Source: a bacterium (lineage in GTDB: Bacteria; ARS69). From it: a DNA stretch of 9,547 bases. Made by a program: the position numbers and the translations under genes. The notes under the pieces are model-generated. The model was not told where the DNA came from. It made no database searches and saw nothing but the letters and a program-made list of their open reading frames with translations. Of the stretch, positions 2,627 to 3,947 are shown piece after piece. Numbering within the stretch: position 1 is the stretch's first letter; each line of letters begins with the position of its first letter. Location of the stretch: positions 1-9,547 of the forward strand of contig JALGZO010000323.1 in assembly GCA_025774865.1 (NCBI GenBank), in the 5' to 3' direction.

Positions 2627-3486
2627 CCGACGACCCCTTCTCGTCTGAGAATCGATTCCACCACCGCGACATCCTCCGGAACGTCGACGCAGGTCGGGTA
2701 CGTTTCGATCTCCCTCACCCTCACCTTCCAGCCCATCCTGAGCGCACGGAGCTGCTCCAGGTCCTCCAACGCCTCGATCCCGCGCCGCGGCTCCGCCACG
2801 AACCGCGCGAGGGCCTGGGCCCGGAAGCCGTAGACCCCGACGTGCTTGAGGCACTCCCGTTCGACACGGTCATCCGTGAGCGGCACCGCGCCCGCCCCCC
2901 CGACCCGGAAGGGGATCGGCGCCCGGGAGAAGTAGAGCGCATTTCCGCGGTCGTCGACCAGGACCTTCACGACGAGTGGATCGTGCCGCTCCGCCTCGGT
3001 CACTCCCCGGACCCCGAGCGTCGCCATCGAAACCTCGGGGTCCCGGAACGCATCCACGAGGCGGTCGACCGATTCCGGACGGAGCATCGGCTCGTCGCCC
3101 TGCAGGTTCAGGACGATGTCCGCTCCGAGGCCCTCGGCCGCCTCGGCGACACGGTCCGTGCCCGTCACGTGGTCGGGACGCGTCATCCGCACCTGGACGC
3201 CCTCGGCCTCCGCCGCCCGTGCGATCCGCTCGTCGTCCGTGGCCACGACGACCCAGCGCACCGCTCGGGCCGCCCTCGCCGCCTCGGCGACCCATCCGAT
3301 CATCGGTCGACCCAGTATGGGGACGAGTGGCTTGCCGGGAAACCGCCGCGACGCGTACCGCGCCGGAATGACCGCGGCGACGGTCGGCGTACCGGAAAGC
3401 GGAGAGGCCGCCCCGTCCGCGCCGAACGCCGGCGAGGAAGAGGCGGCCTCGATCCCGAGACCGGCGATGTCGCGAGGCTTCCTCAG
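2623..3486 (-). CDS. kdsB: 3-deoxy-manno-octulosonate cytidylyltransferase (CMP-Kdo synthetase), CTG start proposed
   Basis: KdsB activates Kdo with CTP to CMP-Kdo, the donor for Kdo transfer to lipid A. Numbering from the proposed start (287 residues), motifs are [15 protein letters not shown] (40-54), ATDDERI (82-88), [10 protein letters not shown] (108-117), NLQGDEP (127-133), [10 protein letters not shown] (184-193), KHVGVYGF (214-221), EDLEQLRAL (241-249) and CVDVPEDV (266-273). The catalytic core is complete. The start is uncertain. No ATG, GTG or TTG occurs in frame between the core and an ATG at 3672 inside the mdh fragment. The best candidate is CTG at 3486-3484, which overlaps the mdh stop as CTGA and has GGAGGG (3501-3496) 9 bases upstream. 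That start leaves about 35 residues of Ala/Ser/Gly-rich tail before the fold, longer than usual (family about 250 residues). It overlaps pyrG as ATGA. Confidence 0.93.
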
Positions 3487-3677
3487 AGGACGGCGCCCTC
3501 CATCGACTCGATCGTGGTCCGCACCTCGTCCGCGGAGCTCTTCAAGAGAGCCTTCTCGTCTTCGGTGAGGTCCAGCTCGATGATCTTCTCGACGCCTTCG
3601 GCTCCGAGAACCACCGGCACTCCGAGATAGATGCCTTCCTCGCCGTACTGTCCGGACAGGTAGGCGGAGCATGCATT
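3483..3677 (-). pseudogene. mdh: 3' fragment of malate dehydrogenase gene, truncated at the rpmA stop
   Basis: Reading the minus strand from the base after the rpmA stop gives 64 residues and a [15 protein letters not shown], then [20 protein letters not shown], then [13 protein letters not shown] and a tail ending MEGAVL. This matches the C-terminal end of NAD-dependent LDH-type malate dehydrogenases (the conserved CAAYLxGxYG and GVPVxxGxxGVEKI segments and the terminal helix). Roughly the first 250 residues, with the Rossmann fold and catalytic His/Arg, are absent. There is no start codon or ribosome site at its head, and it is in the same frame as rpmA, separated only by that TGA. The remaining reading frame has no stops or frameshifts, so loss is recent or the join is artificial. 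It still carries the GGAGGG and stop used by kdsB. The identification is by motif recall, not a search. Confidence 0.8.
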
Positions 3678-3947
3678 TCAGGCCTTCTTCTCTGGCAGCG
3701 GATGGACCGCCACTCGCTTGCGGTTCTTACGGAAGCGCTCGAACAACACCGCGCCGTCGATCAGGGTGAACAACGTGTGGTCGTTACCGACCCCGACGTT
3801 TCTGCCGGGATGATAGCGGGTACCACGTTGTCGGACCAGGATCGACCCTGCGGTCACGTGTTGTCCCGCGCCGACCTTAACTCCAAGGCGTTTGGACTTG
3901 CTGTCACGCCCGTTCCGGGAGCTTCCTCCCGCCTTCTTGTGGGCCAT
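3678..3947 (-). CDS. rpmA: 50S ribosomal protein L27
   Basis: L27 is a large-subunit protein whose N-terminal tail reaches the peptidyl-transferase centre. The 89-residue product is full length: [20 protein letters not shown] (1-20), [40 protein letters not shown], and a lysine-rich end. The N-terminus begins directly with the mature-type AHKKAGG motif, without the Firmicute-type cleaved leader. Start is ATG at 3947-3945 with GAGGGAAG a few bases upstream, 26 bases after the rplU stop, so the two ribosomal genes are co-transcribed. The usual third member of this operon, the GTPase gene obg, is absent; an mdh remnant starts at the next base after the stop. Confidence 0.98.

Follow-up and report, generated by a model that had tools for sequence, protein, structure and literature searches.

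The window analysed here is the entire 9547-bp contig (C326) of an uncultured bacterium's draft genome, which comprises 785 contigs, with a completeness of 92.65% and a contamination of 8.3%. All of the genes discussed below are encoded on the minus strand, in the order nadD, E/G-family ribonuclease, rplU, rpmA, malate dehydrogenase (mdh) tail, kdsB, pyrG, and kdsA. Read from the low-coordinate end of the contig, the features are as follows:

114 to 959, minus strand: kdsA, overlapping the pyrG stop codon (GTGA)
956 to 2626, minus strand: pyrG, overlapping the kdsB stop codon (ATGA)
2623 to 3390, minus strand: kdsB, with a conserved N terminus from an ACG codon (3390), where the relative G002 has ATG
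3404 to 3450, minus strand: GC-rich hairpin resembling a terminator, with a C/T-rich tail after it (CTCTCCTCTTT), found at the same place before kdsB in 4/4 family relatives
3483 to 3485, minus strand: natural mdh stop codon, TGA
3486 to 3677, minus strand: C-terminal tail of a TIGR01763-type malate dehydrogenase (MDH), 64 codons, identified by profile matches and lacking its own start codon near the 5' end
3678 to 3947, minus strand: rpmA (ribosomal protein L27), intact, 89 amino acids
3974 to 4300, minus strand: rplU (ribosomal protein L21)
4398 to 6062, minus strand: Rne/Rng family ribonuclease
6075 to 6662, minus strand: nadD

The last two reading frames of the contig (7449 to 9547, minus strand) resemble, by eye, an outer-membrane protein similar to PorV and a protein whose C terminus has a sorting-type domain. 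As candidates recognized in this way, they would suggest type IX secretion.

An MDH C terminus behind rpmA

The stop codon of rpmA is the TGA at 3680 to 3678, beyond which its frame is open for a further 64 codons (3677 to 3486), until the TGA at 3485 to 3483. The original prediction took these codons for the C terminus of an MDH, and profile searches bear this out. The peptide matched PF02866 (Ldh_1_C) with 37.6 bits, against a cut-off of 22.6, and aligned to positions 248 to 303 of the 305 positions of TIGR01763 (MalateDH_bact) with 65.3 bits and an E value of 5e-18. Because of these two matches, the tail is true MDH homology rather than a frame left open by chance. On its own, an open frame of 64 codons would be weak evidence. 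The probability of finding one by chance at this GC content is 13 to 19%, and its lying in the frame of rpmA is a 1-in-3 coincidence; hence, the case is carried by the homology. The score is far below the curated whole-protein cut-off of TIGR01763 (65.3 versus 351.85 bits). The 64 residues correspond to the C terminus of such enzymes, of which the window holds only the last fifth, without the NAD-binding domain and the catalytic residues, so the tail cannot be an enzyme. A search against RNA families returned only chance matches below the threshold, and a literature search yielded nothing specific.

The tail was initially described as spliced exactly onto the rpmA stop codon. It does lie directly behind rpmA and in the same frame, but the exact fusion could not be upheld. 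Residue 1 of the tail (Asn) is unaligned and similarity to MDH extends from Ala2/Cys3 onward, which places the junction 3 to 6 nt beyond the rpmA TGA. The small palindromic stretch noted at the junction (ATGCAT/GCATGC) is present at 3676 to 3669.

The state of preservation of the tail was evaluated using a profile of the columns that the tail covers, derived from 47 intact MDHs, with each sequence scored leave-one-out. The tail reached 93.4 bits and ranked 19th of 48 when compared with the intact MDHs over the same columns (range, 70 to 101). Its GC content at codon positions 1, 2, and 3 (0.66, 0.39, and 0.83, respectively) follows the same pattern as that of the neighboring genes. By these measures, the tail is undecayed, as had been claimed. 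The lack of measurable decay would be compatible with a recent event, with a sequence that is still constrained, or with an artifact, and it agrees with the earlier preference for a recent truncation or an assembly problem over an old pseudogene. Of the properties by which pseudogenes are recognized, the tail shows a truncated frame with an intact equivalent elsewhere in the genome (mdh on contig C505, see below); relaxed selection in the remnant was not seen.

Gene order in relatives and the rpmA-kdsB gap

The phylum sample consisted of five genomes, including that of the window. One of the four relatives (G001 to G004) is record BQJX01000368.1 (Gemmatimonadota bacterium DHS20C21). G002 and G003 carry bamD-nadD-rng-rplU-rpmA-kdsB-pyrG-kdsA, which is the order of the window, and the other two agree with it as far as their contigs reach (G001 ends inside kdsB; the G004 contig starts in rng and ends in pyrG). 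The arrangement rplU-rpmA-kdsB-pyrG was also read in six further records from Krumholzibacteriia, followed by kdsA in the four that extend that far; five of the six bear the name Krumholzibacteriia in their titles, and the other is bacterium DOLZORAL124_64_63 (L167), which we take to belong to Krumholzibacteriia. Judging from these comparisons, the rpmA-kdsB neighborhood is the normal state. An mdh between rpmA and kdsB was found in none of the four relatives or the six Krumholzibacteriia records, nor was a remnant of an MDH tail detected in the intergenic regions of the four relatives. The window shares with this block its five genes, their order and orientation, and the hairpin before kdsB. 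Unlike the block elsewhere, it alone has an MDH tail before the hairpin, and it alone lacks a recognizable kdsB start.

It was originally proposed that the junction reflects either a recent deletion or rearrangement or a chimeric contig join. Since rng-rplU-rpmA and kdsB-pyrG-kdsA are neighbors in every relative, the junction lies within a single conserved block, which rules out a fusion of two unrelated loci at 3677. The location of the rpmA terminator hairpin, on the far side of the mdh tail from rpmA, also counts against such a join. A deletion, or a small local misassembly within this intergenic region, may account for the junction. On a larger scale, a chimeric contig is ruled out by the synteny of both flanks with relatives.

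The suggested removal of obg from this site was likewise not borne out. An intact obg is located on contig C235, away from rpmA and with a dprA-like gene nearby (neighbors named by eye), and the relatives and Krumholzibacteriia have kdsB, not obg, after rpmA. Nothing in the genome suggests that obg was removed from the rpmA site, and its loss from the operon was rejected.

The hairpin between rpmA and kdsB is a strong one and is conserved across five genera, in the window and in all four relatives (L095, L096, L097, and L098; 5/5 phylum genomes). It is separated from the end of the MDH tail by 32 nt. This puts the tail between rpmA and the operon terminator, which is the natural place for an operon's last gene. 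Most of the Krumholzibacteriia gaps examined by eye contain a hairpin of different sequence at the same place.

Past the hairpin, the window has less sequence before kdsB than any of the relatives, and it lacks the Shine-Dalgarno region and the ATG/GTG start of kdsB. Around the kdsB N terminus (3380 to 3410, minus strand), neither an ATG, GTG, or TTG codon nor a Shine-Dalgarno sequence is present, whereas 4/4 relatives have both. The sole in-frame ATG, GTG, or TTG between the rpmA stop codon and 3390 is the ATG at 3672, 6 nt past the rpmA stop. In the absence of a nearer start, the gene finder therefore calls a KdsB of 349 residues, and the first 94 residues of this entry in the list of open reading frames result from translating the MDH tail and the hairpin out of frame. 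An automatic kdsB call from this ATG would be a false 94-residue extension.

The MDH tail and the missing kdsB start share one 290-bp gap, and two oddities in so short a stretch make a fault in the local sequence or assembly more likely. In that case, the intergenic sequence from 3391 to 3677 would be wrong, and the true genome would have, between rpmA and kdsB, a complete mdh or none. We consider such a local misassembly a serious possibility, nearly as likely as a recent deletion. It would be in keeping with the fragmentation and contamination of the draft, of which the window is one whole 9.5-kb contig, and with the undecayed tail. The ribosome site and start codon of kdsB, which 4/4 relatives possess, are missing although kdsB-pyrG-kdsA look translationally coupled and needed. 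Lesions of this kind do occur in drafts: a distant one, G185, has deletions of 8 bp and 34 bp in an rpmA-linked mdh. However, there is no long repeat at the junction to mislead a k-mer assembler, the assembly contains the tail sequence only once, relatives share the gene order on both flanks, and the base composition of the tail matches that of its neighbors.

The tail might also be a sequence in use, kept and translated, either by readthrough of L27 past its TGA or as a leader that couples rpmA to kdsB through a CTGA overlap (3486 to 3483), with a CTG start of kdsB replacing the lost ribosome site. The frame shared with rpmA and the absence of decay would suit this, as would a GGAGGG motif upstream of the kdsB-frame CTG that overlaps the mdh stop codon, kdsB having no better start. 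We nevertheless regard translation of the tail as highly improbable: it is conserved in no relative, the sequences after the rpmA stop in relatives are unrelated, L27 is of normal length, other genes in the contig also end in TGA, and CTG starts are rare.

The resident mdh and rpmA-linked mdh genes of other lineages

Besides the tail, the genome has one other MDH gene. This resident mdh is intact, encodes 338 amino acids, and adjoins miaA on contig C505. It is orthologous to the mdh of G001 to G004, each of which has a single such gene (76 to 82% identity). Its N-terminal domain is the only one in the assembly; an MDH N terminus that would complete the tail was not found there, in line with the early statement that the rest of mdh is missing. 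The tail shares only about 48 to 50% identity with the resident mdh on C505 and 39 to 49% with resident MDHs, compared with 64 to 79% among the C termini of the residents themselves. Given these values, the tail did not arise by recent copying of the resident mdh. An origin as a duplicate is thus disfavored by identity, and a tree test that placed the tail with the residents of the phylum gave a P value of 0.09, without outright rejection.

The approximately unbiased (AU) test gave P values of 0.36 for a grouping of the tail with the residents plus Krumholzibacteriia and 0.17 for a grouping with rpmA-linked MDHs, all based on 63 residues. In a tree of 49 rows, the tail fell outside the well-supported resident clade, and with 63 residues no placement of it was supported. 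The phylum and Krumholzibacteriia have in common a distinct MDH clade (C terminus ...VRKTCEEVD...), which is set apart from TIGR01763-type MDHs by a long branch with 100/100 support (members L103 on C505, L105 to L108, L207, L208, L210, L212, and L026).

Several distant lineages do carry an mdh directly behind rpmA. Four genomes (G005, G010, G057, and G059) have an intact mdh directly after rpmA on the same strand, with rplU upstream and, in three of them, rng as well; the adjacency was also read in G170, G171, and G186, which brings rng-rplU-rpmA-mdh to seven genomes. In a sample of 173 genomes, it was counted by eye in 6 of about 94 non-family genomes with an MDH match. As in these genomes, the mdh sequence of the window lies directly downstream of rpmA on the same strand, but there the gene is intact, whereas the window has only the tail, followed by kdsB-pyrG-kdsA.

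When the tail alone was searched over the 173 genomes, no close donor was obtained; the closest homolog is 64% identical and is not linked to rpmA. A plasmid search returned only ordinary mdh genes of roughly 50 to 60% identity, and a search of phage records gave no match to the region.

Possible origin of the tail

The explanation that we tentatively favor is that a recent deletion in the cell of a redundant, rpmA-linked mdh left the tail behind. A second mdh would once have been located between rpmA and the operon terminator, giving rng-rplU-rpmA-mdh-terminator-kdsB. A deletion of roughly 750 bp would have begun 3 to 6 nt past the rpmA stop and reached about codon 248 of the roughly 305 in mdh. 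It would have spared the final 61 to 63 codons together with the mdh stop codon and the terminator. The lost MDH activity would be covered by the resident mdh on C505, and the remnant would have no function of its own, being at most transcribed within the rpmA 3' untranslated region. We infer both that an intact mdh once occupied the site and that it was deleted in the cell and not in the assembly.

Several observations argue for a deletion. The tail is an MDH C terminus with its natural stop codon, on the strand of the operon, behind rpmA, and before the conserved terminator; it is undecayed, differs from the resident mdh, and has no completing N terminus elsewhere. Truncated, redundant, undecayed, and single copy, it resembles recent bacterial gene remnants left by deletion, with no notable difference. 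Against a deletion, neither an mdh nor a detectable remnant occurs at this site in the four relatives or in Krumholzibacteriia, so that an intact mdh here would be deduced only from distant lineages. Furthermore, no supported placement joins the 63 residues of the tail to rpmA-linked MDHs, its closest homolog sampled lacks that linkage, and the missing kdsB start region within this gap points to a possible fault in the sequence.

That all family relatives and the six Krumholzibacteriia records have rpmA and kdsB with no intervening mdh also raises the alternative that the site never held an mdh in this lineage. In that case, a 3' fragment of mdh from another organism or locus would have been inserted between rpmA and the terminator by illegitimate recombination or fragment transfer. 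That the tail, by identity, is not of the resident type would also fit an insertion. We consider an insertion unlikely. It would require a chance integration in the correct orientation, immediately downstream of rpmA, of a fragment that carried its own stop codon; there are no convincing flanking direct repeats or mobile elements, and the searches of genomes, plasmids, and phage records described above provided no close donor. A chance insertion beside rpmA would be expected far less often than the rpmA-mdh order is seen, and it is mainly because this order is real elsewhere that the remnant of an rpmA-linked mdh is preferred.

If the deletion is real, the locus represents one more recent truncation, in which a spare rpmA-linked mdh was lost and a different mdh was kept, and it would document the turnover of an old gene order. 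If instead the assembly is at fault, the case advises caution against annotating kdsB of this contig as a 349-residue protein or reading gene order from the contig. Neither outcome is surprising, and the case is biologically ordinary.

The rpmA-linked mdh of the draft G185 (L228, contig C306) shows its 8-bp and 34-bp deletions by comparison with the gene of its congener G010 (L099). The second of these deletions ends just before the codons ILPCAAYLEGEYG, near the point where the tail of the window begins. The proximity of the two sites may mark a weak spot for assembly or may be a coincidence.
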